DNA from: Candidatus Poribacteria bacterium
GTDB taxonomy: Bacteria; Poribacteria; DTPJ01; WJIO01
NCBI GenBank assembly: GCA_014730235.1
Contig: WJIO01000304.1
Location: 1-36,543 of the forward strand
Direction: 5' to 3'
Length of the DNA stretch: 36,543 nucleotides
Shown: positions 4,454-32,273 of the stretch, one piece after another
How positions within the stretch are numbered: position 1 is the first letter of the stretch
Layout of the letters: each line of letters opens with the position of its first letter
Made by a program: the position numbers and the translations under genes
Notes under the pieces: model-generated
Databases searched by the model: none
Told to the model about the DNA's origin: nothing
What the model saw: the letters and a program-made list of their open reading frames with translations, nothing else

Positions 4454-6286
4454 TTATAACTTAGAACTCAAGGTATACACAGTTATTAATTTCTTTGCTT
4501 TATTTATACCTCCGTTTTTATCTGTAACTGTTAGATTCACTGTGTATTTTCCCGGAGTATTGTATGTATGAACAGCCCGAGGGCCGTAGCTTTTTTTACC
4601 ATCTCCAAAATCCCATAGGAACGCTATATAATCGTTGTCCGGATCATAGGAATCAGTACCATCAAAGGTTATTTTTTCACCAGTTATAACATTCCCAGGG
4701 CAGATAAAATTGGCTTTAGGTGGGTTATTATCAGTAAAATCTTTAATCACAAGGTTATCTATACCCACAGTGATCTCCGGGGGTGATTTTGAACCTGTGT
4801 ATAGATTTAGGTGTTTAATAGAACTATCATCAGGAACAGGTCTTCTGAAATTTACCCCATAGACTTTTAAAACTTTTTGGGGGTTATTATTCATATCTTG
4901 TAGATTACCCGAAATTTCTATGTCAAAACTATTGGATGCAATATCGGCAGTTATGGTTACATGATAAAGGTCATTTGGATTGTAATAACCTATTTGACTG
5001 AAACATGTAGATCGCAGATTGATTGTTCCATGATCCAGACTAAAACCGAAGTTCTCAGTTTCTTCTTCATTTTCAGTTTTATATGGTGCTTTCTGACTAA
5101 ACATAAAGATATGATTATATTTATCGGCTTTGAAATCAAAATCTATATGAATTTTCCCATCCAGACTGCCTAGATCAGGACTGCTGACTACGGCATGAGA
5201 GCCAATTTGTTTACTTTTAACAAAACGAAGACCGGGATTTCCTGTTTCAACAGCATCAACCGCAATTTCAACTAGAGATTTATCGTCTGAATTTTCTTTA
5301 TCTATACCTTCTTTATTCGTTATTTCTGAATAATAATGACCTTGCCAATCGGATACGTCATTGGAATCAAAATTATCCACGAATAAAGCCTTTTGGGATA
5401 TGTCGGCGACCTGTTTGCCATTGGTTAGGGCATAGGGATTCTGTATGGGAATAGATGTATCAATTATATCAATAAATATCTCGCTGTTGTCTATAAGTTT
5501 GGTTTTTGCAGGATAAAAAAAATTGCCATGTTGTTTTTCAAGGGTATATTTATGAACTATACCGGGTATTTGGATCAAACCCACCATAAAGATCACTATT
5601 CCCGTTGCGGTACTCAATCCGAAAGGCAGGGAATAACTGCGGGGTAAATCCATTATCCTGGTTTGACCAATTAAATCCATAATCTGAAGGGTAAATCCAG
5701 CAGGAAGTCTGTTGCGATCAAATTCCTCCTGTACCTTCTTGAAGTTGATTTCTTTAAAAGAATTCCTGGCTCTTTCTAATCTTTTTCTGACTCCTGAATT
5801 TGACATCCCAAGAAAACGGGCTATTTCTTCAACTTTTAAGTTTGATAAGTAATACATGGATAAAACTTTACGGTATTTTTCAGGCAAATTATTCAGTATC
5901 TTATGAACATAGTCAATATTAAATTCCCTGTATTGTTCACTAATATACGAATCCACAGCCTTTTTATCCACTAATTTCATACTATCAGCATTACCAATAT
6001 AACTCTTATCAAACTGACGTTTTTTCTCTCCTATTCTATCACTGCAAAGATTTGCAGTGATAGAATACATCCACGCGGTGAAGCTGTCTATATTTTTAAG
6101 TTTCTTAAGATTTTTATATGCTTTGATAAAGGCATCCTGAGTTACCTCCTCAGCATCCTGAAAGTTCATTAGCTTTGAATAAGCAAGGGCATATACGCTT
6201 TTTTGGTATCTTTCAACCAATATTCTAAAAGCTTTCTCATCTCCAGCAATACACTTGCGAACTATATGACCATCTTCAGTTCTCAA
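4454..6286 (-). CDS. ECF sigma factor fused to a membrane helix and extracytoplasmic PKD domain
   Basis: 610 residues. Residues 1-90 are sigma-70 region 2 (FRILVERYQKS, then DAEEVTQDAFIKAYKNL). Residues 125-180 are region 4 (NLPEKYRKVLSMYYL, then a helix-turn-helix with VEEIARFLGMSNSGVRKRL). A single hydrophobic helix follows at about 221-243. About 290-515 is a beta-rich domain resembling jelly-roll (LamG/DUF1080-like) folds. The last ~90 residues are a PKD domain with the signature FLWDFGDGKKSYG and HTYNTPGKYTVNLTV. Predicted topology puts the sigma part in the cytoplasm and the tail outside. The start is TTG at 6286 with GAGGTGG nearby; no better ATG exists in frame. ECF sigma factors are normally about 170-200 residues, so the tail is the unusual part. 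No separate anti-sigma gene is adjacent. Confidence 0.85.
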   Translation of the reverse strand: MRTEDGHIVRKCIAGDEKAFRILVERYQKSVYALAYSKLMNFQDAEEVTQDAFIKAYKNLKKLKNIDSFTAWMYSITANLCSDRIGEKKRQFDKSYIGNADSMKLVDKKAVDSYISEQYREFNIDYVHKILNNLPEKYRKVLSMYYLSNLKVEEIARFLGMSNSGVRKRLERARNSFKEINFKKVQEEFDRNRLPAGFTLQIMDLIGQTRIMDLPRSYSLPFGLSTATGIVIFMVGLIQIPGIVHKYTLEKQHGNFFYPAKTKLIDNSEIFIDIIDTSIPIQNPYALTNGKQVADISQKALFVDNFDSNDVSDWQGHYYSEITNKEGIDKENSDDKSLVEIAVDAVETGNPGLRFVKSKQIGSHAVVSSPDLGSLDGKIHIDFDFKADKYNHIFMFSQKAPYKTENEEETENFGFSLDHGTINLRSTCFSQIGYYNPNDLYHVTITADIASNSFDIEISGNLQDMNNNPQKVLKVYGVNFRRPVPDDSSIKHLNLYTGSKSPPEITVGIDNLVIKDFTDNNPPKANFICPGNVITGEKITFDGTDSYDPDNDYIAFLWDFGDGKKSYGPRAVHTYNTPGKYTVNLTVTDKNGGINKAKKLITVYTLSSKL

Positions 6287-10748: not shown

Positions 10749-11753
10749 TTGAAATATATACTTGTTTTTGCTTTAGCCTTTGTTGTTTCTGTTGTTCTTA
10801 CACCTTTGATGATTAACTTAGGTAAAAATCTAAAGATATTTGGTAGAAAAGCTGATGAAAGATGGAAATCTCAGCCTATACCTCGTATTGGTGGTATAGC
10901 AATTTTTCTGGGCTTTATTATAACTGTATTGATATTTGTTTCGATGGAAAGAGATATAATCATTTTTCTCCTGGGTTCTGTAGTTCTTTTTTTGTTAGGA
11001 TTGTTCGATGATAAAGTTGGGGCTATTCCAAGCGGAAAGCTACTAATTCAACTTGTTGTTGTTATTTGTCTTATGATTTTGGGTATAAGACTTAAAATAC
11101 TAAATATCTATTTAGCTATACCCTTGTCTTTAATATGGTATATCATGGTTATTAATTCTTTTAATTTAATTGATAATATGGATGGTCTATCCTCTGGTAT
11201 AACAATTATTGCCTCTCTGGGCTTCTCTATTTTAGCATGGGAAAAAGGTCAGAACCATATGGTGTTTATTACGCTGGCTCTTGCAGGAGCATCTGCGGGA
11301 TTTCTTATATTTAACTTTAATCCTGCAAAAATTTTTATGGGTGATTGTGGAAGTCTTTTCATTGGTTACGTTTTAACTACCTTACCTATGTTACTTTTCT
11401 GGCAGGAAAGCACAAATGTATTTCCGGATCTGGCTGCACCTGTACTTATTCTGGTATACCCTATATTTGATACAATCATGGTTACTATTCTGCGCTTGAA
11501 GGCCGGAAGCCGCCCCTGGATTGGTGGGAAAGACCATTCCTCACATAGATTAGCTATATGGAAATTAGGTGAAGTTGGTGCGGTATTTTCAGCATATCTG
11601 ATTGGAATTATAGGTTGTGTTTCTGCATATATAATACTAAGTGTCAAACCTTCCTTTTATATACCCCTTTTGATCTTACTTGGTGTGGTGGCTTTATCTT
11701 TTGGTATGTCTATTTCCAGAATAGATATTTCTAAATATAAAAGCATTCATTAA
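10749..11753 (+). CDS. WecA/MraY-family polyprenyl-phosphate glycosyl-1-phosphate transferase
   Basis: 334 residues, mostly transmembrane (about 10-11 helices). Family motifs: RKADERWKSQPIPRIGG (33-49), GLFDDK with D87-D88, NSFNLIDNMDGLSSG with D142 and D145, FNPAKIFMGDCGSLFIG with D199, and the cytoplasmic loop GGKDHSSHRLA with H263 and H266. These bind Mg and the UDP-sugar. It transfers a sugar-1-phosphate (probably N-acetylhexosamine) from UDP-sugar to undecaprenyl phosphate, the first step of exopolysaccharide or O-antigen synthesis. The HSSHR-type loop favours WecA/TagO over MraY. The start is TTG at 10749 with GGGAG upstream. It is first in the locus; the next gene begins 12 bases after its stop. 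Confidence 0.88.
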   Translation: MKYILVFALAFVVSVVLTPLMINLGKNLKIFGRKADERWKSQPIPRIGGIAIFLGFIITVLIFVSMERDIIIFLLGSVVLFLLGLFDDKVGAIPSGKLLIQLVVVICLMILGIRLKILNIYLAIPLSLIWYIMVINSFNLIDNMDGLSSGITIIASLGFSILAWEKGQNHMVFITLALAGASAGFLIFNFNPAKIFMGDCGSLFIGYVLTTLPMLLFWQESTNVFPDLAAPVLILVYPIFDTIMVTILRLKAGSRPWIGGKDHSSHRLAIWKLGEVGAVFSAYLIGIIGCVSAYIILSVKPSFYIPLLILLGVVALSFGMSISRIDISKYKSIH

Positions 11754-11765
11754 GAATTTGGGAAA

Positions 11766-13268
11766 ATGAAGATATTTAAATGGATAATAATAACGACGAT
11801 AATATTTGTATTTGTTTGTCAATTTAATATAATTTTTGCTCAGGATTATAAGGCAAAACCCGGTGACATTATTACAGTAACGGTTTGGGAACGTCCATCT
11901 TTGTCAGGAAGTGTGCCTGTTGATTCAAACGGTAACATAGTTCTTGCTATGCCCATTGGAACTCTGTCAGTAGCAGGATTAACGGCTGAACAGATTACCG
12001 ATTTGTTAACAGAACGACTGGAAGAATACATGATTAATCCTACAGTTTTTGCCTCTATTAGTCCAGCATCGGGTTTTTTTATACATATCATAGGTGAGGT
12101 ACGTTCCCCAAATTTTGTAAAAGTTCCCGAAGGTACGAGAGTTCAGGAAGCTATAACAAGAGTTGGCGGTTTTACCCCTATTGCAAATTCAAGCAAGATA
12201 AAGCTAGTTCGCAAACAGGACGATGCTGTTAAAGAAATATATCTGGACTTTAATAAATTTATAGAAACGTCTGATTTATCCTATAATCCTGTTCTTAAAC
12301 CAGATGATTTGCTTGTTGTTCCAAGATTACCAGAGTCAGAACGTAATAAATATATAAGTATAATGGGAGCAGTTAATTCTCCGGGTATATACGATTTGGA
12401 CAGATCATTGAAATTATCTGCAATTCTCGCCCGGGCCGGTGGTATATCAGAAAATGCAGTTATTGAAAATATATCTATACTTAAATACAATAATGGTGAT
12501 TATTTATGGGAAAATGTTAACTTTAAAAAATTTTTTACAGAAAGAGATATGTCTTATAACCCTGAAATATTACCGGGTTATACTATTTTTATACCGGGGG
12601 AAAATTTACAGGATTTGACCTTTAACGTAAATGTTATAGGTCAGGTAATGAATCCCGGAAATTATAAACTTATTAAAGAAAGCCGCTTAATTGATGCTGT
12701 ATACATGGCAGGTGGTTTTACTGAAAGTGCAAAAACAAAAGAAGTCAAAATAATAAGTGGAGACAAAACCATAAAAAAAGTAGACGTAGAATCATACTTA
12801 ACAACAGGTGATAATAAATACAACCCAATGTTAAAAGAAGGTGACGGTATATTTGTAACCGCACCTGATAACCTTAAGAAAATGCTGCAAACCCCCAAGA
12901 CATTCTCAAACCTTATTCCAGTAAGTGTTATTGGGGCGGTGGAAAAACCGGATATATATCAGGTTTTCCCGGAATCCAGTATTTTGGATGTACTTGAAAT
13001 TGCAGGTGGACCTGCGCCAGAAGCCGATCTGGATAAAGTTATTATTATCAGAAAAGAACCAGAGGGTTACATAAATAAAAGATTTATTGAACTGAGAAAG
13101 ATTTTTGAAAATGAAGGTAAACAGGAAATTGTAAAAATCAATCCAGGTGATACTATATTTATACCAAAATCAAAGCCAAAACGGGATTTATGGAAAAGCG
13201 TTGTGAATATCGCAGCCGGTGTTTATACCATAACCCTGGCTTATTTAATAGTAACTGGCAAACGTTAA
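11766..13268 (+). CDS. Wza-like polysaccharide export protein with several SLBB domains
   Basis: 500 residues. A signal peptide (1-25, ending IIFAQ) is followed by the Poly_export domain (YKAKPGDIITVTVWERPSLSG...). Then come four SLBB repeats, each opening with a motif of the type IGEVRSPNFVKV, MGAVNSPGIYDL, IGQVMNPGNYKL and IGAVEKPDIYQV, and closing with AGG-type turns. The C-terminus (LWKSVVNIAAGVYTITLAYLIV) is a hydrophobic helix like the outer-membrane alpha-barrel helix of Wza. There is no lipobox cysteine. It should form the periplasmic/outer-membrane export channel. Wza has about 380 residues and fewer SLBB domains, so this is an enlarged version. It sits between the transferase and kinase genes with 12- and 10-base gaps. 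Confidence 0.9.
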   Translation: MKIFKWIIITTIIFVFVCQFNIIFAQDYKAKPGDIITVTVWERPSLSGSVPVDSNGNIVLAMPIGTLSVAGLTAEQITDLLTERLEEYMINPTVFASISPASGFFIHIIGEVRSPNFVKVPEGTRVQEAITRVGGFTPIANSSKIKLVRKQDDAVKEIYLDFNKFIETSDLSYNPVLKPDDLLVVPRLPESERNKYISIMGAVNSPGIYDLDRSLKLSAILARAGGISENAVIENISILKYNNGDYLWENVNFKKFFTERDMSYNPEILPGYTIFIPGENLQDLTFNVNVIGQVMNPGNYKLIKESRLIDAVYMAGGFTESAKTKEVKIISGDKTIKKVDVESYLTTGDNKYNPMLKEGDGIFVTAPDNLKKMLQTPKTFSNLIPVSVIGAVEKPDIYQVFPESSILDVLEIAGGPAPEADLDKVIIIRKEPEGYINKRFIELRKIFENEGKQEIVKINPGDTIFIPKSKPKRDLWKSVVNIAAGVYTITLAYLIVTGKR

Positions 13269-13278
13269 ATGGGCGATT

Positions 13279-15513
13279 ATGCAGACAAAGACTTCTAACG
13301 CTAGAGACAAAAATATATATGGACAAATAGAATCATTTTCTCTCCGGGATTATTTAAGAATAGTTACAATAAGAAAATGGCTGGTTTTAGCTATATTTAT
13401 TGTATCTATAGGAATCTCTATTTATTATCTGGCTGTAACGCCACCAAGCTATAGAACCCGGGTTTTGATAATGAGGGAAGAAACAAACAGGACGTTTCCA
13501 GAAAGCTTTATGTCTCTTTCACCTATGATGGACACATGGGATAAAGGAGAGGAATTAATACTGAAAAGTTTTTCTTCTTTGAGAGAAATAAAAGAAAAAA
13601 TCTATAAAAAGCATGGTTTTACATTCGATATACATAATCTTTCGGATAATATATCTTTATCCAACTACGAGGAAAGCTCTCGTATACTGGAGTTAAAGGT
13701 TAGCAGTGATACACCAGAAAAAGCTCGAACCTTGGCTAATACAGCAGCAGAAATATATATCAAAAATACGGGTGAAATTGAAAGTAATAGGTTAAAACAA
13801 GGCCTGAATTTCATGAAACAGCAGATGATAAAGTTGGAGGAAAAAATTCAGGAAACAGAAAAAGCTTTAAGCAATTTCAGCAGTAAAGAAGGCCTTGTAC
13901 TTACAAATAATCTGGCCTCGAATAATTTAATCGATAGATTGGGAGTCATGCAAAGTGAACTTATAAAAACAGAAAGCGATATAGAATTAACAAAAACCCA
14001 GCTTCAGTCTGTAGACGAATTAATAGCTGAAAAAAAGAAATATTCCCGATCATCTTCAGTTGCTGAATTATCTCCACAAATAGATCAAATTCAAGAAAGA
14101 CTTATAACTCTGCAATTAGAACTAAGTACAAAAAGAGAAACGCTAAAAGAGAAAGACCCGGAAATCATATCTCTTCAGAGAAAAATAGATGTTATGCAAA
14201 AGCAATTAAAAACTGAATTTGATAAATTATTAGAAACACCAGAAATAAAATCTTTTGATCCTATATCAGAAATACAAGCTCTCATGCAGCAGTCTATTAC
14301 CCTGAATGTAGATTTAAAAAAAATGGAGAGAAAGGCTGAATTGTTAAAGGAAAGGATGAAAAAATTTGAATTAGATCATCCTGAATTAATATCCAAACAT
14401 ATAGAGCTAAGCCGCCTGGAAAGACAGGCAAGAATTTATGAGCAAACATACACCGATCTAATGACAAAATACGAAGATATGCTTTTGCTAGAACAAATGA
14501 AGGGAAATGGATTAGAAATAATTGATGAAGCTTTCCTCCCTTCATCACCTGTCAATCCTGGCAAAACAAGGGTACTTGCTGCAGGCGTTATTATAGGCCT
14601 TTCCATGGGAATACTTAGCGCTATTTTACTGGAATTATTAGATGATTCTATCAAACGTAAAGAAGATGTTGAGCAATATATGGAATTACCGGTAATAGGG
14701 ACAATACCAAGGATTGATGGATTTAATACAGATAAATCAAAAAATAATATAATCAAAAATAATTCAGAAAAATTTGATAAAAATGTAAAAGAAATAATAA
14801 GACACATTGTCCTTTATTCCCCAAAAGAATTTTCCGAATCTCCTTGGATGGAAAGTTACAGAAATTTGTCGGCAAATATAAGATATCATAATGTGGATAA
14901 ACCTATCAAATCATTATTAATTACAAGTGCTATGCCTCAGGAAGGTAAAACAACCACATCAAGCAATCTGGCCGTAGTGATGGCACAGACGGGTGTGAAA
15001 ATACTCCTTATAGATTCCGATATGCGACGTCCCAAGCAAAACATTATTTTCCAGCAAAATCGAAAACCCGGTCTTTCGGATTTACTCTTATCTGATAATA
15101 ATTCAGAATCAATTAACTTTGAAAGTTATATTCGCCCTACCCAACAGGAAAATCTGTATTTATTAACAGCAGGAGATCACTTTTCTGATTCTAACAAATT
15201 GATAACATCCGGTAAAATGCAAAAATTAGTAAATGATCTGAAACAGGATTTTGACCTCATTATAATGGATTCTCCGCCGCTTATGTTGGCCTCGGATTCT
15301 ATAACCCTCAGTAAAATTGTTGATGGTACAATAATAGTATTGAATTCAGGTAATACCAAAAGAAAAATAGGCATCCAGGCCCGGGAAATTCTCGAAGGTG
15401 TTGAAGCGGAAATTATTGGTGCAATACTTAATAATGTAGATTATTCAAAACAATACGGAAATTATTATTATAATTATCGTTATTATAAAAGTTATTACGA
15501 TAGTAAAAATTAA
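13279..15513 (+). CDS. Wzc-like chain-length regulator and BY-kinase
   Basis: 744 residues. A Wzz domain opens the protein with a first helix at about 34-56 (WLVLAIFIVSIGISIYYLAV). A long coiled-coil periplasmic section follows (about 170-420), with a second helix at 431-454. The C-terminal cytoplasmic tyrosine kinase has Walker A MPQEGKTTTS (K557), Walker A' LLIDSDMRRP (575-585) and Walker B DLIIMDSPP (D664). The tail of 23 residues contains ten tyrosines, the usual autophosphorylation cluster. It controls polymerisation and export of the polysaccharide with the Wza-like partner. It is of the fused Gram-negative type rather than the split Gram-positive type. No strong ribosome site is seen; translational coupling with the gene 10 bases upstream is likely. 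Confidence 0.92.
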   Translation: MQTKTSNARDKNIYGQIESFSLRDYLRIVTIRKWLVLAIFIVSIGISIYYLAVTPPSYRTRVLIMREETNRTFPESFMSLSPMMDTWDKGEELILKSFSSLREIKEKIYKKHGFTFDIHNLSDNISLSNYEESSRILELKVSSDTPEKARTLANTAAEIYIKNTGEIESNRLKQGLNFMKQQMIKLEEKIQETEKALSNFSSKEGLVLTNNLASNNLIDRLGVMQSELIKTESDIELTKTQLQSVDELIAEKKKYSRSSSVAELSPQIDQIQERLITLQLELSTKRETLKEKDPEIISLQRKIDVMQKQLKTEFDKLLETPEIKSFDPISEIQALMQQSITLNVDLKKMERKAELLKERMKKFELDHPELISKHIELSRLERQARIYEQTYTDLMTKYEDMLLLEQMKGNGLEIIDEAFLPSSPVNPGKTRVLAAGVIIGLSMGILSAILLELLDDSIKRKEDVEQYMELPVIGTIPRIDGFNTDKSKNNIIKNNSEKFDKNVKEIIRHIVLYSPKEFSESPWMESYRNLSANIRYHNVDKPIKSLLITSAMPQEGKTTTSSNLAVVMAQTGVKILLIDSDMRRPKQNIIFQQNRKPGLSDLLLSDNNSESINFESYIRPTQQENLYLLTAGDHFSDSNKLITSGKMQKLVNDLKQDFDLIIMDSPPLMLASDSITLSKIVDGTIIVLNSGNTKRKIGIQAREILEGVEAEIIGAILNNVDYSKQYGNYYYNYRYYKSYYDSKN

Positions 15514-15518
15514 AAAAC

Positions 15519-15594
15519 TTGGTTCTTCCGGGTTTAGTGTGGTTATAATTGAAAATTCCCTCAGCTTGTCATTCCTGCCTTCCCAGGAATGACA
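15519..15594. repeat. MITE-like dispersed repeat, copy 3 (half element)
   Basis: Only the left end is present: TTGGTTCTTCCGGGTTTAGT, then the conserved ATAATTGAAAATTCCCTCAG spacer, then an 11-bp hairpin of the TGTCATTCCTG type (15567-15594). It starts six bases past the kinase stop codon and sits inside the polysaccharide operon. It supplies a spurious in-frame N-terminal extension to the flippase. Confidence 0.75.
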
Positions 15595-15641
15595 GTATAC
15601 AGAAGGGGCGTCTGACATTTGCGGTAAAAAATCATTTCAAT

Positions 15642-17105
15642 ATGCCTATTTCAAGAGTTATAAAAACTGCTGAGAGTATTTTTAAAGGTGACTCAATCGG
15701 TAGTAAAGCCAGACGTGGAAGTATATTTATTCTTTCTTCCAATATCCTCAGGCAAGTTTTAGATTTTACAAGAAAAATTATTTTGGTAAGAATTCTTACT
15801 CCTACGGATTTTGGGCTGGTTGGTATAGCCATGACAGTTATTTCTGGAGTACAAATATTATCAAATACAGGACTCAGAGCTGCACTTATCCAGAAGAAAG
15901 ATTTGAATAAATCACTTCTTGATACAGCCTGGTCAATTGAGATTACCAGAGGTTTAATACTTAGCTGTATAGTTTTTTTCTCCGCGCCGATAATTTCAAA
16001 TTTTTTTAAAAGTGAAAATTCAACCAATATTTTAAGAGTTTTGAGTATTTTGCCATTAATGGATGGTTTAAGGAATATTGGTACCATATACTTTGATAAA
16101 GAGCTAAAATTTCATAAAATTCTTTTATATCAGCAAATTATAGGTATTACAGTCTTTGTTACTTCCTTGTTATGTGTTCTTGTTATAAAAAACGCCTGGG
16201 TTATAGTTGCAGGAAGTATTTCTGGGGTAGCAGCAAGTGTTATTGCTTCTTATATTCTGCATAAATATCGCCCTAATTGGCGAATCAACTGGAATGATTT
16301 TAAGATATTATTTGATTTTGGGAAAAATCTACTTATTATTGGAATAGTTACTTACCTGCTTGAACAAGGTGGTAATTTTTTTATTGGTAGAATATTAGGA
16401 ACAGCATCACTGGGCATATATCTTCTGGCTTATAATACAGCAATTTTACCTATAAATATCTTTGGAGATTTAATACGCAGGATTACGTTTCCAGCTTATG
16501 CTCATATTCAGGATGACTTATATAGGCTGCGACATGCTTTTCTTAAATCCTTTAAGACTTCGATGGTTCTGCTGGTTCCGGTAACAATAGGTTTAATAAC
16601 CTTGTCTGATAATTTTATACTAATTATTTATGGTGCTAAATGGCAAAATGCTGTGGAACCTTTCAAAATACTTTGTTTCTTTGCGTTACTACGGGCAAAC
16701 TCCTTTGTTATTGCCCCTTTATTACACGGAATCGGCAAACCGAATTTAGCAACCAGAGCCAGGATTGTTGAATTGGCAGTCTTTAGTATACTTATTTACC
16801 CCGCAATACGAACTTATGGAATTATTGGTGTAGCTTTAGCTATTACTATTACATACTTAATTGCATTATTACTAAGATATTATTATATTTTGAAAATTCT
16901 ACCATCAACTCTAAAGCCAATGACGTTAATTATACTGAAAATATTAATAAATGCTTTTGGAATGACTATAATATTATTATCGTTTCGAAACTCTGTATAT
17001 TCTATATTATCTTTGATCGGTCTGGTCTTAGTTTCAGCAATTGTATATTTTTCAGCAATGTTTTTGACGGATAAAAAATGGTTGTATAATTTAGCCAATA
17101 GATAA
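15642..17105 (+). CDS. Wzx-like polysaccharide flippase (MATE/PST superfamily)
   Basis: 487 residues from the ATG at 15642. The frame is open further upstream, but those codons are translated dispersed repeat, so I reject them. About 12-14 hydrophobic helices; the start ARRGSIFILSSNILRQVLDFTRKIILVRILTPTDFGLVG is characteristic of the polysaccharide biosynthesis / MviN-like flippases, as is FGKNLLIIGIVTYLLEQGGNFFIGRILG in the middle. It should move undecaprenyl-linked repeat units across the inner membrane. No clear ribosome site precedes the ATG, and the repeat hairpin at 15567-15594 is only 47 bases upstream, so expression may be reduced or separately initiated. The next gene starts six bases after the stop. 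Confidence 0.86.
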   Translation: MPISRVIKTAESIFKGDSIGSKARRGSIFILSSNILRQVLDFTRKIILVRILTPTDFGLVGIAMTVISGVQILSNTGLRAALIQKKDLNKSLLDTAWSIEITRGLILSCIVFFSAPIISNFFKSENSTNILRVLSILPLMDGLRNIGTIYFDKELKFHKILLYQQIIGITVFVTSLLCVLVIKNAWVIVAGSISGVAASVIASYILHKYRPNWRINWNDFKILFDFGKNLLIIGIVTYLLEQGGNFFIGRILGTASLGIYLLAYNTAILPINIFGDLIRRITFPAYAHIQDDLYRLRHAFLKSFKTSMVLLVPVTIGLITLSDNFILIIYGAKWQNAVEPFKILCFFALLRANSFVIAPLLHGIGKPNLATRARIVELAVFSILIYPAIRTYGIIGVALAITITYLIALLLRYYYILKILPSTLKPMTLIILKILINAFGMTIILLSFRNSVYSILSLIGLVLVSAIVYFSAMFLTDKKWLYNLANR

Positions 17106-17111
17106 TACATT

Positions 17112-17717
17112 ATGCGCAGAATAATTAGCAGTGTTACAGATGCAATTATAAAATTGTTTATTTATCTTGAGCCTGGGTTGAGGTGGAAATATTATAAACT
17201 GCGGAACCAGATATTAAAGCAAAAAATGAAGAAATGCGGCGAAAACTGTATAATTCGCGGAGGAGTTACTATTTTGCATCCAGAAGGCCTTTCCCTTGGC
17301 AATAATATACATATTGGTAATAATGCACTGATTGATGCTCTTGGCGGTATCTCCATAGGTGATAATACGCATATTGCACGAAATTTGACAATTTATTCCT
17401 ATAATCACAATTATGAAGGCAGCGTTTTGCCTTATGATGATACTATCATTAAGAAACCCGTTGTAATTGAAAAAAATGTCTGGATTGGCGCGGATGTAAA
17501 AATTGCTCCCGGAGTTACTATTGGGGAAGGTTCGATTATCGGTATGGGGTCACTAGTCGGTAAAGATGTACCACCTTTAGCTATCATGGTAGGAAAGCCT
17601 TTGCGCATTATAAAATACCGCGATAGACAGCATTATGATAAATTAGAAAAGACATCATCCTACGGTGGTATCAATGGCACACCTTTAAAATCTGCGGATA
17701 AAAAAAATGGCAATTAA
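17112..17717 (+). CDS. Left-handed beta-helix acyltransferase (WcaF/NodL/Maa type)
   Basis: 201 residues. Hexapeptide repeats run from about 48 to 170 (GNNIHIGNNALIDALGGISI, then IEKNVWIGADVKIAPGVTIG). A loop with SYNHNYEG carries the likely catalytic H99. The end IMVGKPLRIIKYR is typical of acetyltransferases for sugars or serine. It would O-acetylate the polysaccharide or its precursor using acetyl-CoA. Its stop overlaps the next gene by 11 bases, so the two are translationally coupled. Confidence 0.85.
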   Translation: MRRIISSVTDAIIKLFIYLEPGLRWKYYKLRNQILKQKMKKCGENCIIRGGVTILHPEGLSLGNNIHIGNNALIDALGGISIGDNTHIARNLTIYSYNHNYEGSVLPYDDTIIKKPVVIEKNVWIGADVKIAPGVTIGEGSIIGMGSLVGKDVPPLAIMVGKPLRIIKYRDRQHYDKLEKTSSYGGINGTPLKSADKKNGN

Positions 17718-26629: not shown

Positions 26630-27148
26630 TTATATCTCGCTATCCAGAAGGGTTATACTTTTGGGATCCAGTTTAGTATAGTCCTTTATTTCGTAACGAT
26701 TTCCATCCGCATCCCTTATAACTACTCGTTTACCTTGCATTTTGCGTATATCTTCTTTATATCTTGTCTCAAAGGTTCTTGGGCCTTTTTCTGTTTCTAC
26801 ATCAAATTTCATGATCCCGTGATTTTCTTTCATGTTGTTTATCTTTGTTATCCTGGGCATGAAATACTCTCGTTTAAGCTCTTCTCTGAGAATTTTTTTT
26901 GATTTTGAGTCTAACTTTCCAACATCCTCGATTATACCAATTTCTTTATCCTTCTTGCCATCTTTAATCTCTGACAAAGACACATATTCATCAGGGTTTG
27001 TAAGTGGAAATCCCATGGTTGGCCGAATTTCCATGGTTTTACCTTCATCTTTTATAGTGAGGATAAGCCTGTTGAATTCGTCCTTGTGTATATGTAGCTT
27101 TTTAGGATCTAACATGTTTAATTCGTTCTTTATATCGTAAGCCTGCAT
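26630..27148 (-). CDS. DUF1854 family protein
   Basis: 172 residues from the ATG at 27148, which follows GGAGGTAGTA; an in-frame TTG inside the ribosome site is rejected. The protein is soluble and mixed alpha/beta. Visible family segments: MGFPLTNPDEYVSLSEIKDG, IGIIEDVGKLD, EELKREYFMPRITKI and a basic RDADGNRYEIKDYT end, all typical of DUF1854. Function is unknown. From memory, NCBI names relatives 'cyanophycin metabolism-associated DUF1854 protein', found with a matching ABC transporter; the same pairing is seen here, but no cyanophycin gene is in the window. It follows the ABC gene after 19 bases (to the ATG), so they are coexpressed. Confidence 0.8.
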   Translation of the reverse strand: MQAYDIKNELNMLDPKKLHIHKDEFNRLILTIKDEGKTMEIRPTMGFPLTNPDEYVSLSEIKDGKKDKEIGIIEDVGKLDSKSKKILREELKREYFMPRITKINNMKENHGIMKFDVETEKGPRTFETRYKEDIRKMQGKRVVIRDADGNRYEIKDYTKLDPKSITLLDSEI

Positions 27149-27167
27149 TACTACCTCCAAAAGAAAG

Positions 27168-29465
27168 CTATACTACTTTAATACTGGAAAGTTCTGACTG
27201 CATATCAACAAGGCGTTTATAAAGACCGTTATTCTTTATCAACTCATCGTGAGTTCCCATTTCTGAAATAACGCCTTTTTCCAATATTATTAGCTTGTCA
27301 GCCTTTCTCAGGGTTGAAAGTCTATGAGCTATGGCAAAAGTTGTACGACCCTCTACCAATCTTTCGATGGCTGCCTGTATCTGGGATTCTGTCTCTGTAT
27401 CGACTGACGAAGTAGCTTCGTCCAGGATCAGTATTCTTGGGTCTTTCAGTATTGCCCTTGCAATAGATATACGCTGTTTTTCACCACCGGAAAGTCCAAC
27501 GCCTCTCTCCCCTACCATTGTATCATAACCATCGGGGAAATTCATTATAAAGTCATGGGCATTGGCAGTTTTGGCGGCAGCCACAACACTTGCTCTGGTT
27601 GCATCGGGTTTACCATAGGCTATATTTTCCGCAATTGAGCCATGAAACAAAAATGGTTCCTGTAACACAACGCCAATCTGGCTTCTGAGGGACTTCATGG
27701 TTACCTCTTTAATATTATGGCCATCAACGTATATAGCACCCTCTGATACATCGTAGAACCTTCCAAGAAGATTTATCAGGGTACTTTTACCCGCACCGCT
27801 GGGGCCTGAGAGACCAATCATCTCACCGGCTTTGACCTCAAAGCTTATACCATCAATAGCATTCTTTTCATCGTCATAGCTAAAGACCACATCTTCAAAC
27901 TTAATGTCACCTTTTATGGCAGGTAATTCAACAGCATCTTCTTTATCATCTACATCAGGTTGAGCATCCAGAATTTCAAAAACTCTTTCCGCCGATGAAG
28001 CAGCCCGTTGCAGTGAGTGATTCAATCGGGTGAGTCCGTGTATAGGGCCGTAGAATTGCCACATATATCCCACAAAAAGCATAAGTTCTCCCAGTGTCAT
28101 TTCACCACCAATTATATCACGACCACCAAACCATCTGATGATAATTCCTCCGGCAAAAGTGGCAAGACCCATAAGTGGAAAATATATGGTACTGATCTTA
28201 GCGGCTCTCATGCTGTGGGTAAAAAACTCTTCGTTTTGTATGTTAAATCTGGTAATTTCCCTATCCTCAGCAGCGAATGCTTTAACAACTCTTACACCGG
28301 GGATAGTGTCAGCCAACACTGCCGATATACCGGCCATCCTGCGCCATACTTTGTGGTATACCATGTGCATTTTTTTACCAAAGATTATAGAGCCAACGAT
28401 CATTGTCGGTATAGGAACGAGAGATAAAGTTGCTAATCGCCAGTTAGTTATAAATAATACGGTACACATACCAACCAGCTTAAGTATATTCATTGCAAAG
28501 TCTTGAATACCATGAACAATAAATTCCTGAAGTCTTCCCGTATCATTGGAAATACGAGACATAAGCCTTCCGGTTTCCTTTTTATTGTAAAAAGACAAAG
28601 AAAGACGTTGCAGGTATTGATAGGCTGAAGTTCTAAGGTCATAAATAACCTTATTTCCCAGCCACTGCATCATGTAAGTTCTACCAGCACCCAGAAGCGT
28701 ATTTGTTATGTGTATCCCTATTATTGCCAGGACAAAAACGTTTAATAAAAATAAACGCCGATCAGTTGTAGTTTCTACCACAGGAGCAAAAACTCTGTCA
28801 GTAAGGTATTTCGTTAAATACGTTGGTACAAGTCCCAGAGCGGTTGTTACTAGAGTTAAAAGAAAGGCAATGATAGCGATCTGCCAATAAGGTTTCAGAT
28901 AACTGAAAAGCCTTCCTAATAGAGCACCTTTGTCCAAACAATTAGGACATGTGCCTGTCCAATGAGGTATAATGGCACCGCATTTCTCACAGCGATGGTC
29001 TTTCTTGCTACTGGGGCCTTGTTCGCCTGTGCTTTTTTGAGATTCTGATTTATGACCGTTTTTCTCTCTTATCTTATCTATGACCTTTGGTATTTCACCA
29101 ATTTCATTTTGATGAAAAGCGGTCTTTGAGAATCTAAGGAATTCAACGGCCTTGTCTTTGGTCGTAATCTCAAGTACACCATTTCCTATATAGTTCTTAA
29201 GTTTTACATCATCAATATCAACCAATAAAAGTTCTTTTACTACCTCAGCTTTTACTGAATGGTCACCATTAAACACCATAATGCGTTTATCAGTAGCTAA
29301 AAACCAGTTTTCCTTAAAATCACCTTCCAGACTCATATCGCTGGAAACAGCCATATGAATTTCTTCTTTGTCTTTTGTTATTTTGTTAAATTCTTCCTCA
29401 ACAACCTTAGGCAGTTCTCCTTTAGGTCCAATGGGGAGCGGTTCTTCTGGAATAGAAGCACTCAT
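27168..29465 (-). CDS. ABC exporter with N-terminal PH-like domain and zinc ribbon
   Basis: 765 residues, much longer than the ~580 of a standard half-exporter. Residues 20-135 look like a bacterial PH-like domain (FLATDKRIMVF). A linker rich in Ser, Lys and Glu leads to a zinc ribbon with C159-x2-C162-x10-C173-x2-C176. The ABC1 transmembrane domain is about 190-480 (six helices). The ATPase has Walker A GPSGAGKS (554-561), Q-loop Q602, signature LSGGEKQ (658-664), Walker B ILILDE (678-683) and H-loop H714, so it is active-looking. It likely works as a homodimer that exports a lipid, peptide or polymer. The substrate is unknown. It pairs with the DUF1854 gene downstream. The ribosome site is AAGGAGA. 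Confidence 0.88.
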   Translation of the reverse strand: MSASIPEEPLPIGPKGELPKVVEEEFNKITKDKEEIHMAVSSDMSLEGDFKENWFLATDKRIMVFNGDHSVKAEVVKELLLVDIDDVKLKNYIGNGVLEITTKDKAVEFLRFSKTAFHQNEIGEIPKVIDKIREKNGHKSESQKSTGEQGPSSKKDHRCEKCGAIIPHWTGTCPNCLDKGALLGRLFSYLKPYWQIAIIAFLLTLVTTALGLVPTYLTKYLTDRVFAPVVETTTDRRLFLLNVFVLAIIGIHITNTLLGAGRTYMMQWLGNKVIYDLRTSAYQYLQRLSLSFYNKKETGRLMSRISNDTGRLQEFIVHGIQDFAMNILKLVGMCTVLFITNWRLATLSLVPIPTMIVGSIIFGKKMHMVYHKVWRRMAGISAVLADTIPGVRVVKAFAAEDREITRFNIQNEEFFTHSMRAAKISTIYFPLMGLATFAGGIIIRWFGGRDIIGGEMTLGELMLFVGYMWQFYGPIHGLTRLNHSLQRAASSAERVFEILDAQPDVDDKEDAVELPAIKGDIKFEDVVFSYDDEKNAIDGISFEVKAGEMIGLSGPSGAGKSTLINLLGRFYDVSEGAIYVDGHNIKEVTMKSLRSQIGVVLQEPFLFHGSIAENIAYGKPDATRASVVAAAKTANAHDFIMNFPDGYDTMVGERGVGLSGGEKQRISIARAILKDPRILILDEATSSVDTETESQIQAAIERLVEGRTTFAIAHRLSTLRKADKLIILEKGVISEMGTHDELIKNNGLYKRLVDMQSELSSIKVV

Positions 29466-29546
29466 AAGATTTCTCCTTAAAGCCTGTTAAAATTAGCATT
29501 TACCCTTTTTAAGGAACCTTGAAAATAAGTTTTGAAATTTGCCTAA

Positions 29547-29575
29547 CAAAAAAGCAGAGGTTTCAGTACCTCTGC
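29547..29575 (-). terminator. Intrinsic terminator or attenuator upstream of the ABC gene
   Basis: On the minus strand GCAGAGGT, a 6-nt loop, ACCTCTGC and then TTTTTTG. It lies between a near-consensus promoter (29675-29703) and the ABC start codon (29465), and after the end of the fusion gene at 29916. Confidence 0.8.
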
Positions 29576-29668
29576 GTAAGCTGGTGGAATATTCTTTTAT
29601 TATGGTTCAGTATATTTACTGAGTTTACATAATTTATTTAAACTAAATACATAATATATACATTTTTG
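29547..29668 (-). ncRNA. Candidate small RNA or attenuated leader
   Basis: A strong promoter and an intrinsic terminator on the same strand bound about 122 nt with no plausible coding frame (only a six-codon ATG frame at 29643-29663 that is almost leaderless). Besides the terminator hairpin there is a 6-bp stem TCAGTA/TACTGA at 29607-29622. It could be a free small RNA, or a leader that stops early so as to control the ABC-DUF1854 operon. The 450-bp stretch 29466-29915 otherwise holds only repeat copy 5. Not similar to any RNA family I recognise. Confidence 0.45.
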
Positions 29669-29674
29669 GTATTT

Positions 29675-29703
29675 AGTATATATATGCAAGTTGCCTTTGT
29701 CAA
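29675..29703 (-). promoter_or_regulatory. Strong promoter upstream of the ABC gene
   Basis: On the minus strand TTGACA (29703-29698), exactly 17 bases, then TATACT (29680-29675). It is as good as any promoter in the window. Start is expected near 29668, about 200 bases before the ABC start codon and upstream of the hairpin at 29547-29575. Confidence 0.72.
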
Positions 29704-29915: not shown

Positions 29916-32273
29916 CTATACATAACGAATTTTGATCCCCTGTTTGCTGTCCAGCTCTCCTTCTTCTTTCAGGTTTATCAAAAGGTTATCAGCAGAAAAA
30001 CCAGATTTGATAAGGTCAACTCTGGTTAAGAAATCAAGGATCAAATCCCTGTAATGGTCACGCCTATTTTCATTTATTTCAACCCCGTTTCTCAGTTCTA
30101 TATCAATAGAAAGCACCGGATTGCTTTCGGAATCTTCCTCTGGTTCAAGGAAAAAACGCCCGGTAATCTCAGAAGCCACTTTAGAATCTTCGAAGAGTGA
30201 TTCCTTAATAACTTCAGGATGCAGGCATGATCCCTCTAACCATACCTCCCCGGTTGTCCTTCTGAAAACATAAAGAAATGGAAGCGGTAGATCAATACTA
30301 TCATCCATGCCAAAGTCTCTCAGGCTTTTTTGCATATCCCTGTAGGTGATTTTACCTCCCATATCATGAAGGTTATATTTTATCAAAGGGGCTATTCTGC
30401 CCGGGGAAATAGTACTGAATTCCAATTCCTGATTCTTATTTGATGTTATGTAATATCTACCGGGATTATATTGGAATAGCATAGGAATACTTTCTGAATT
30501 ATCCCCGAACAATTTGACGGTCAGATCCCTGTTTTGATTTGCTGCCCGTCTTATTCTTATGCTGTCAGGTGTTTCCATAAATCCAATAGCACCTATATCC
30601 GATGCACCGAAGGTTGATATAACAAAGTTGTCCATATCAGTTCTGTTTTCAGCATCAAGACATTGATTTATATAATCCCGCCAACCTTCAGAAAAACCTT
30701 CCCCGCTGTTTAGAAAAACAAACCTAACACCCTTGTCTTTCCAATAATCCGGGTCTTTCTCCATAGCTCTGTCAACCAGTTTCTTTATAAATGGAGGATA
30801 AGCTGTAATCAAAATCTGGTCATAATCTTTTTTGTGCCGATCTATTATATCCAGTATTACATAGTCCACAGGTCCGGGGGTAAAAAGTGTGATATAATCC
30901 TTTACCAGGCGACTGACACTTATGCCACTTACCCAGCCACCTGTTGCATAAGCATTTATCAAAAGGTTTTTATGTTTTGTTATATCAAAAAAATATTCAG
31001 TAAAGAAGGCAAAGTTTTTACGCCCTTCTTCCTCTTCCTCAATACCGATGGGCCATGTAGAAGCAGGTCCTGTAAAGCCTGAACTTGTGGTAAATATAGC
31101 CGCATTATCCGTTCTACCATCCAGACAAAGCTCTGAAGGTGATTGGATTGTATTTATGTAGTTCTTTTTATCCATGGCTGGAACTATATTTAGAATTTCT
31201 TCCACGCTGTCAATCTCGCTTGCATCAATACCTTTACTTTCCAGGAACTTCTTATAATGTGGAACACGTTCTGCTGCATTATGGAACGTTTGCAAAAGCC
31301 TGTTTCGGGAAAATTGTTCAGGAAGATCAGGACCTATCTTTTTAATGTCTTCGATCCACTGGCTGATTGTCCTGGATTCAACATCTTCTTTTTTGAGACT
31401 TACGGAATCTTTTTCCGGTTTTTCTGCTTGATCTGCCATAAGATGTTCCATAATATCTCTGGCATATCTCAATCTTGCATCACGTATAGTTAGTGGAGCT
31501 TTATTCTCATTGGGTATTTCAAGGTTAAATAATCCCTGATAGTTTATATCTCTCAAGGCAGAAATAACACTTTTCCAGTCAATATTGCCGCCAAAAGGCA
31601 TACGATGTTGATCGCTTGAACCATCGTTGTCGGACATATGGGTTGCAAATAACATGCCTTCACATTCATTTATGGCCTGGGTCATATCCAATCCGGTTAC
31701 GTTTGCATGACTGCTGTCAAAACAAATACCCAGAGATTCAGAACCTACAGCGTCAATAATTTCCCGAATATCGGAAATTCTTGCTCCTATTCTCCACTTC
31801 TCCTGTCCTATACGTTCCTGCATGTTTTCAATACAGAATCTTACGCCTAATTTATCGGCTGTTTCTGCCAACCTGCAAAAGGCCTCTATATTAGTAGTCT
31901 TTATTTTATCCTTTTCCCGGTCGTTTTCTGCGCGCTGTTTACCACCGGGATGGATAACAAGATTGGGAATATCGAGCAAATTTGCATATTCTGCCCATTT
32001 AAGAGCTATTTGCATATCTTCTTCGCATTTGTCTGGATCGTCTTGAGCTATATCCAACTCTAAGGGTGTATGAATCTGCCATATTTTTACATCTACTTTT
32101 TCACACAAATCTTTCAGCTTAATTAAACGTTCTTTCCAATCACCTTCCTGAGTCGCCATCTTTCCATGTTCAGCAGACATTTCCAAATGCTTCCAACCAA
32201 GTTCAGCAAAACGAAGAATAGAATTTTCTGGCGACAAGTCAACATAAAAACTACTCCATACACCTGACTCCAT
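29916..32273 (-). CDS. Fusion: sugar-isomerase-like TIM barrel plus PaaK-like adenylate-forming domain
   Basis: 785 residues in one uninterrupted frame. Residues 1-280 are an AP-endonuclease-2 / xylose-isomerase-like TIM barrel with plausible metal ligands E149 (FCIEN), D186 and H189 (FDSSHA), H212 (THMSDND) and E252 (LEIPNE). Residues about 300-785 resemble phenylacetate-CoA ligase / LuxE-type enzymes: AERVPHYKKFLESKGID, the ATP loop TTSSGFTGPAS (395-405), STFGASDIGAIGF and TGEVWLEGS. The linker (281-310) is charged. No signal peptide. The first part should isomerise or epimerise a sugar-like substrate; the second should activate a carboxylate as an acyl adenylate. The ribosome site GGAGAA is six bases before the ATG. 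Its neighbours do not reveal the substrate. Confidence 0.8.
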   Translation of the reverse strand: MESGVWSSFYVDLSPENSILRFAELGWKHLEMSAEHGKMATQEGDWKERLIKLKDLCEKVDVKIWQIHTPLELDIAQDDPDKCEEDMQIALKWAEYANLLDIPNLVIHPGGKQRAENDREKDKIKTTNIEAFCRLAETADKLGVRFCIENMQERIGQEKWRIGARISDIREIIDAVGSESLGICFDSSHANVTGLDMTQAINECEGMLFATHMSDNDGSSDQHRMPFGGNIDWKSVISALRDINYQGLFNLEIPNENKAPLTIRDARLRYARDIMEHLMADQAEKPEKDSVSLKKEDVESRTISQWIEDIKKIGPDLPEQFSRNRLLQTFHNAAERVPHYKKFLESKGIDASEIDSVEEILNIVPAMDKKNYINTIQSPSELCLDGRTDNAAIFTTSSGFTGPASTWPIGIEEEEEGRKNFAFFTEYFFDITKHKNLLINAYATGGWVSGISVSRLVKDYITLFTPGPVDYVILDIIDRHKKDYDQILITAYPPFIKKLVDRAMEKDPDYWKDKGVRFVFLNSGEGFSEGWRDYINQCLDAENRTDMDNFVISTFGASDIGAIGFMETPDSIRIRRAANQNRDLTVKLFGDNSESIPMLFQYNPGRYYITSNKNQELEFSTISPGRIAPLIKYNLHDMGGKITYRDMQKSLRDFGMDDSIDLPLPFLYVFRRTTGEVWLEGSCLHPEVIKESLFEDSKVASEITGRFFLEPEEDSESNPVLSIDIELRNGVEINENRRDHYRDLILDFLTRVDLIKSGFSADNLLINLKEEGELDSKQGIKIRYV

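Follow-up and report, generated by a model that had tools for sequence, protein, structure and literature searches.

A gene of Candidatus Poribacteria encodes, in a single open frame, a xylose-isomerase-like TIM barrel (here called barrel B) that is joined to a PaaK-like adenylate-forming ligase. The gene lies in the window, by which we mean the whole analysed stretch of 36,543 nucleotides. The window is a contig (C243) of an assembly of 5.5 Mb in 451 contigs, 91.6% complete, which is taken to be a metagenome assembly (G000). The fusion is one intact chain, and nothing points to a joining error. Both halves are enzymes of known kinds, and their combination in one chain is undescribed as far as we have searched. 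An open-access search, covering part of the literature, found nothing on a barrel and a PaaK-type ligase that are fused or otherwise linked. With a probability of roughly 0.6, we read the protein from its sequence as a bifunctional enzyme, in which a metal-dependent barrel for a sugar-like metabolite and a carboxylate-activating ligase would serve the same pathway as a second barrel (barrel A), which is encoded elsewhere in the genome.

Table 1. Features of the fusion gene, its flank and the second barrel-ligase pair of the same genome
Feature	Position	Strand	Contig	Basis or detail
Fusion gene: barrel, linker and PaaK-like ligase, 785 aa	29916..32273	-	C243	single open frame
Residues 1-282: xylose-isomerase-like (AP_endonuc_2) TIM barrel, barrel B	31428..32273	-	C243	PF01261, E 3.8e-37
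Possible internal start ATG, M281	31431-31433	-	C243	just ahead of the linker
Residues 283-299: interdomain linker, roughly 17 residues	31377..31427	-	C243	bounds from the end of the G001 barrel and the start of the paralogue alignment
Residues 300-785: PaaK-like adenylate-forming ligase	29919..31376	-	C243	19-member family alignment, PaaK profile match
Terminator-like hairpin separating fusion gene and ABC transporter gene	29554..29575	-	C243	8-pair stem, then TTTTTT
Barrel A, four-cysteine tail	L041:9441-10343		C246
Stand-alone ligase, 516 aa	L041:7847-9397		C246	41% identical to the C-terminal half of the fusion

A sequence-only reading of this DNA had described a sugar-isomerase-like barrel and an adenylating enzyme in one chain, and the intact frame, the PF01261 match and the PaaK profile match bear this out. 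The barrel half matches PF01261 over residues 23-265 with 128.8 bits (cut-off 31.1). The metal ligands named in that reading (E149, D186, H189, H212 and E252) are present at these numbers, and all five are conserved among the related A and B barrels as far as each sequence covers these positions. The nearest solved chains are MJ1311, IolI and D-tagatose/D-psicose 3-epimerases, which share with barrel B, as does IolO, the PF01261 fold family and a Glu-Asp-His-Glu metal site. To our knowledge, none of these enzymes carries a fused ligase. The barrel misses the NCBIfam equivalog cut-off for D-psicose/D-tagatose 3-epimerases (56.7 vs 300 bits) and that of the IolO model (55.4 vs 300 bits). As no substrate-specific subfamily model reaches its curated cut-off in either half, the reaction of the barrel cannot be named from sequence. 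Mn-dependent TIM barrels that act after sugar oxidation are also found in the 3-keto-glycoside beta-eliminases CGE and AtOGE (PMC10628242). The metal ligands of AtOGE are His-Asp-His (PMC10628242), unlike those of barrel B, and the partner subunit and flavin oxidase of the eliminases were not identified at the fusion locus. A Gfo/Idh/MocA gene is located 2 kb from the fusion on the other strand, and nothing ties it to the fusion. A link of the barrel to 3-keto-glycoside elimination might be followed up as a lead only.

By profile and motif residues, the C-terminal half qualifies as a PaaK-like adenylate-forming ligase in the broad sense. The loop TSSGFTG at residues 396-402 is intact, as the sequence-only reading had noted, and the adenylation residues D559, D637, R672 and the C-terminal K781 (fusion numbering) are not only present, but invariant in 19/19 aligned family members. 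The alignment of these 19 members contains 21 invariant columns; the loop reads SSG in 18 rows and S-A-G in the remaining one. SSG loop, motif aspartates, motif arginine and C-terminal lysine are all common to PaaK (2Y4O, 4R1L, 2Y27). In PaaK, the C-terminal Lys422 touches the alpha-phosphate (PMC7204872), and K781 is, judging by its position, probably the equivalent residue. The fusion departs from the family in having R671 in place of a nearly invariant glycine ahead of R672 (A8 region), and T-T in place of the usual S-D after the motif arginine, where its paralogue has S-T.

Pfam gives no meaningful match to residues 300-785, and no AMP-binding match to the fusion protein as a whole; models of PaaK and of F390 synthetase match weakly. 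When the 19-member family profile is compared with solved structures, PaaK scores best (2Y4O, E 1.5e-20; 4R1L, E 1.3e-17), with a match that spans stretches of both subdomains. The ligase half nevertheless differs from PaaK proper in falling far under the NCBIfam equivalog cut-off (27.5 vs 700 bits, haloarchaeal PaaK model). Of the earlier label PaaK/LuxE-like, the first part agrees with the best profile matches and the second is less apt. The similarity to the LuxE acyl-protein synthetase (7XC6) is weak (E 3.6e-4) and is lost with a larger profile, and the Pfam LuxE model has no match at E 1 in the 19 members. In LuxE, a cysteine near the C-terminus carries the acyl group; in the 19-member alignment, the last 60 residues hold no conserved cysteine. 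Structure models predicted from single sequences were too poor to use, with pLDDT values of 36.5 (AlphaFold2 mean, bearing on the two-domain adenylation fold) and 44.1.

The same genome has a second, unfused barrel-ligase pair. On contig C246, barrel A is followed, after a gap of 43 nt, by a stand-alone ligase and then by hisD. The latter was considered as a further gene of the pathway. However, the genome has no other hisD and the match is of full strength, so that the gene most likely belongs to histidine synthesis. In the nearest relative, G001, which is the only other listed genome of the order, barrel A stands directly before the barrel B orthologue, with about 10 nt from the stop to the likely start, and there is no ligase. 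In a tree, the B barrels of the two genomes group together (97/95), and their A barrels do so less firmly (89/88). Barrel A occurs in 8/84 genomes of the phylum; barrel B occurs in six, and never without barrel A (hypergeometric probability about 7e-8, uncorrected for relatedness). Apart from the genome with the fusion, the genomes with both barrels lack the ligase, so the function of the barrels does not need it. On a simple reading, an ancestral set of A, B and ligase may have been duplicated and split here, so that A now adjoins one ligase copy and B is fused with the second.

Further observations were made on barrels in the phylum. Long open frames in G057 and G074 were considered as additional fusions, and the genes there are stand-alone barrels. 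In G016 and G074, barrel A adjoins a gene that looks penicillin-acylase-like by eye (L084:5617-7968, L078:1-1428). Relatives show 'FPNPFNPETWIPY' tails, which would suggest the label Poribacteria. In G110, barrel B is flanked by a melibiase-like gene, whose likeness to a divergent lipoprotein gene near the fusion (32750) was set aside as too weak (E 0.001, one short stretch).

Both halves probably belong to one pathway, as an unfused barrel and ligase lie side by side in the same genome. The N-terminal divalent-metal TIM barrel would epimerise, isomerise or eliminate a hydroxy-keto, sugar-like metabolite. The C-terminal ligase would use ATP to convert a carboxylate, most likely a product or partner of the barrel substrate, to an acyl-adenylate. 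The acyl group would then be transferred, with CoA as the most likely acceptor and a hydroxyl or amine as a possible one. In this scheme, the catalytic activities, the metal, the substrate, the acyl acceptor, channelling and the shared pathway are all predicted. It draws on the intact frame, the two active sites, the pair on C246, the A-B tandem of G001 and the co-occurrence of A and B. Counted against it are the origin from one assembly, the subfamily cut-offs, R671, the poor structure models, the ligase relatives that elsewhere stand alone or beside kinases rather than barrels, and the genomes with A and B that lack a ligase. The earlier suggestion of a shared or sequential substrate in an unrecognised pathway gains from the C246 pair and the G001 tandem as far as a single pathway is concerned; substrate and pathway themselves are still conjectural. 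A conserved third gene, for which an acyl carrier, a thioesterase or a reductase had been proposed, was not found beside either ligase copy.

It is somewhat unlikely that the halves are joined for co-expression or docking only and catalyse different reactions without a common metabolite, part of the ligase possibly being made from a start at M281. Such a start would give a product of 505 aa, near the length of the stand-alone paralogue, and it is preceded by a weak GGA-type ribosome site; ligase relatives elsewhere are also without a barrel partner. However, the barrel-ligase link is found twice in the genome, with two different barrels, which goes beyond a chance joining of unrelated genes.

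We consider it comparably unlikely that, instead of being a CoA ligase, the C-terminal half forms esters or amides by coupling an acid to a hydroxyl or amine group on the barrel product. Two PaaK-like ligases, NatL2 and AjiA1, turn up weakly in the family profile search. For 6SIW, which we take to be NatL2, the match to the profile is very weak (E about 0.86), and the true CoA ligases of the PaaK type far outscore it in the same search. NatL2 is a PaaK-family ligase with a C-terminal extension of its own, which forms an ester via an acyl-adenylate, without CoA (PMC7204872). The penicillin-acylase-like neighbour of barrel A in two relatives, recognised by eye, hints at acyl conjugates. On the other side, a conserved gene for the acceptor side was not found.

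Outside the fusion, the ligase belongs to a wider family, on which a literature search returned nothing useful. A two-sequence ligase profile found strong-scoring members in six further genomes, and a protein search added members in Nonomuraea gerenzanensis and Gemmatirosa kalamazoonensis. In the phylum of G273, taken as cyanobacteria from gene content, 52/386 sampled genomes have a member, nearly always stand-alone and in single copy. In a tree, the fusion ligase and its paralogue fall together (100/99), next to the members from Gemmatirosa, G232 and G233 (98/95). In G232, the ligase is part of a frame of 978 aa (L072:7146-10082), where it is C-terminal to a different part that has the look of an alpha/beta hydrolase by eye, and that has no sequence match in Pfam or the PDB. 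In G178 (L074:5798-9575), three adenylate-forming genes stand in a row, namely a distant family member and two that appear LuxE/PaaK-like by eye.

Some of these relatives have kinase neighbours. A Ser/Thr kinase gene or gene pair, of the Zn-ribbon type, is close to the ligase in 11/17 cyanobacterial loci examined (L108-L123 and L070). The ligase genes of G232 and G233 adjoin genes for 7TM histidine kinases. Loci with such a direct neighbour are L071:6657-10556, L073:7276-10368 and L072:7146-11773; HisKA_7TM is matched in L071 and weakly in L072, and L073 was assigned by eye. At these loci, the ligase could be the synthase of a signal and the kinase its sensor. G233 also has a divergent response-regulator-like gene. 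The kinase neighbours, and the change from glycine to arginine in the A8 region of the fusion, could be taken to mean that the ligase half has been diverted to signalling or regulation and is no longer metabolic. We regard this as improbable, since the fusion retains the catalytic lysine and every other invariant residue, and a kinase is found beside neither ligase copy of this genome.

The frame of the fusion runs from an ATG without internal stops. The GC content is 0.38-0.42 on either side of the junction, and the codon usage of both halves stays within the range seen in adjacent genes. A 301-base stretch across the junction is unique in the genome, and no repeats of at least 14 bases were found near it. 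The barrel half reaches the same end as its 53%-identical homologue in G001, and the ligase half is complete except for a poorly aligned N-terminal extension seen in the paralogue. GC content, codon usage and repeats show no sign of a joining error, a possibility that the sequence-only reading had raised. The fusion is known from this one metagenome assembly only; in its exact form, it was not found in 83 other genomes of the phylum or in wider genome samples. Scans of the genome collection with the full 785-aa protein and with a two-sequence ligase alignment were blank, which reflects the patterns used rather than absence, as relatives were found by later searches. Occurrence in a single metagenome assembly leaves room for an artefact in which assembly or base calling erased a stop between two neighbouring genes, but this is very improbable given a linker that is coding and in frame, even GC content and codon usage and a unique, repeat-free junction. 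Moreover, a simple miscall presupposes that the two genes were adjacent, which in itself would show barrel and ligase to be paired.

The window contains other genes and signals of potential interest. An ABC transporter and DUF1854 pair downstream of the fusion (26630-29465, minus strand) was considered as a functional partner and rejected on account of the intervening terminator-like hairpin, which suggests that fusion and ABC transporter genes are separate transcription units. The pair resembles a cyanophycin-associated pair, with scores under the cut-offs; at its N-terminal end, the ABC protein carries a PH-like domain and a stretch resembling a zinc ribbon. The interval 29546-29703 (minus strand), which separates fusion and transporter genes, has a near-consensus promoter (11/12), a terminator-like hairpin about 100 bases on and a fold z-score of -3.3. 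A small RNA at this place is possible; Rfam has no family there at gathering score. A single frame at 4454-6286 (minus strand) combines an ECF sigma factor at the start with a PKD domain at the end. The region 10749-17717 (plus strand) is an exopolysaccharide export cluster, with a glycosyltransferase of family 4, a Wza-like export protein, a Wzc-like kinase, a flippase and a hexapeptide acyltransferase.

The bifunctional reading can be extended, tentatively, to an undescribed pathway. Barrels A and B would rearrange a sugar-like compound; in the same protein, an acid that stems from this compound or is attached to it would be activated by a ligase from an uncharacterised PaaK-like family that is spread across several phyla. 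This extension is possible, if rather doubtful. The fusion draws attention to a PaaK-like family that lacks a Pfam model and is present as one copy in many cyanobacteria, often near protein kinases. As a natural fusion, it would link two superfamilies of otherwise promiscuous enzymes to a single pathway, and would in this way narrow the search for the substrates of both.
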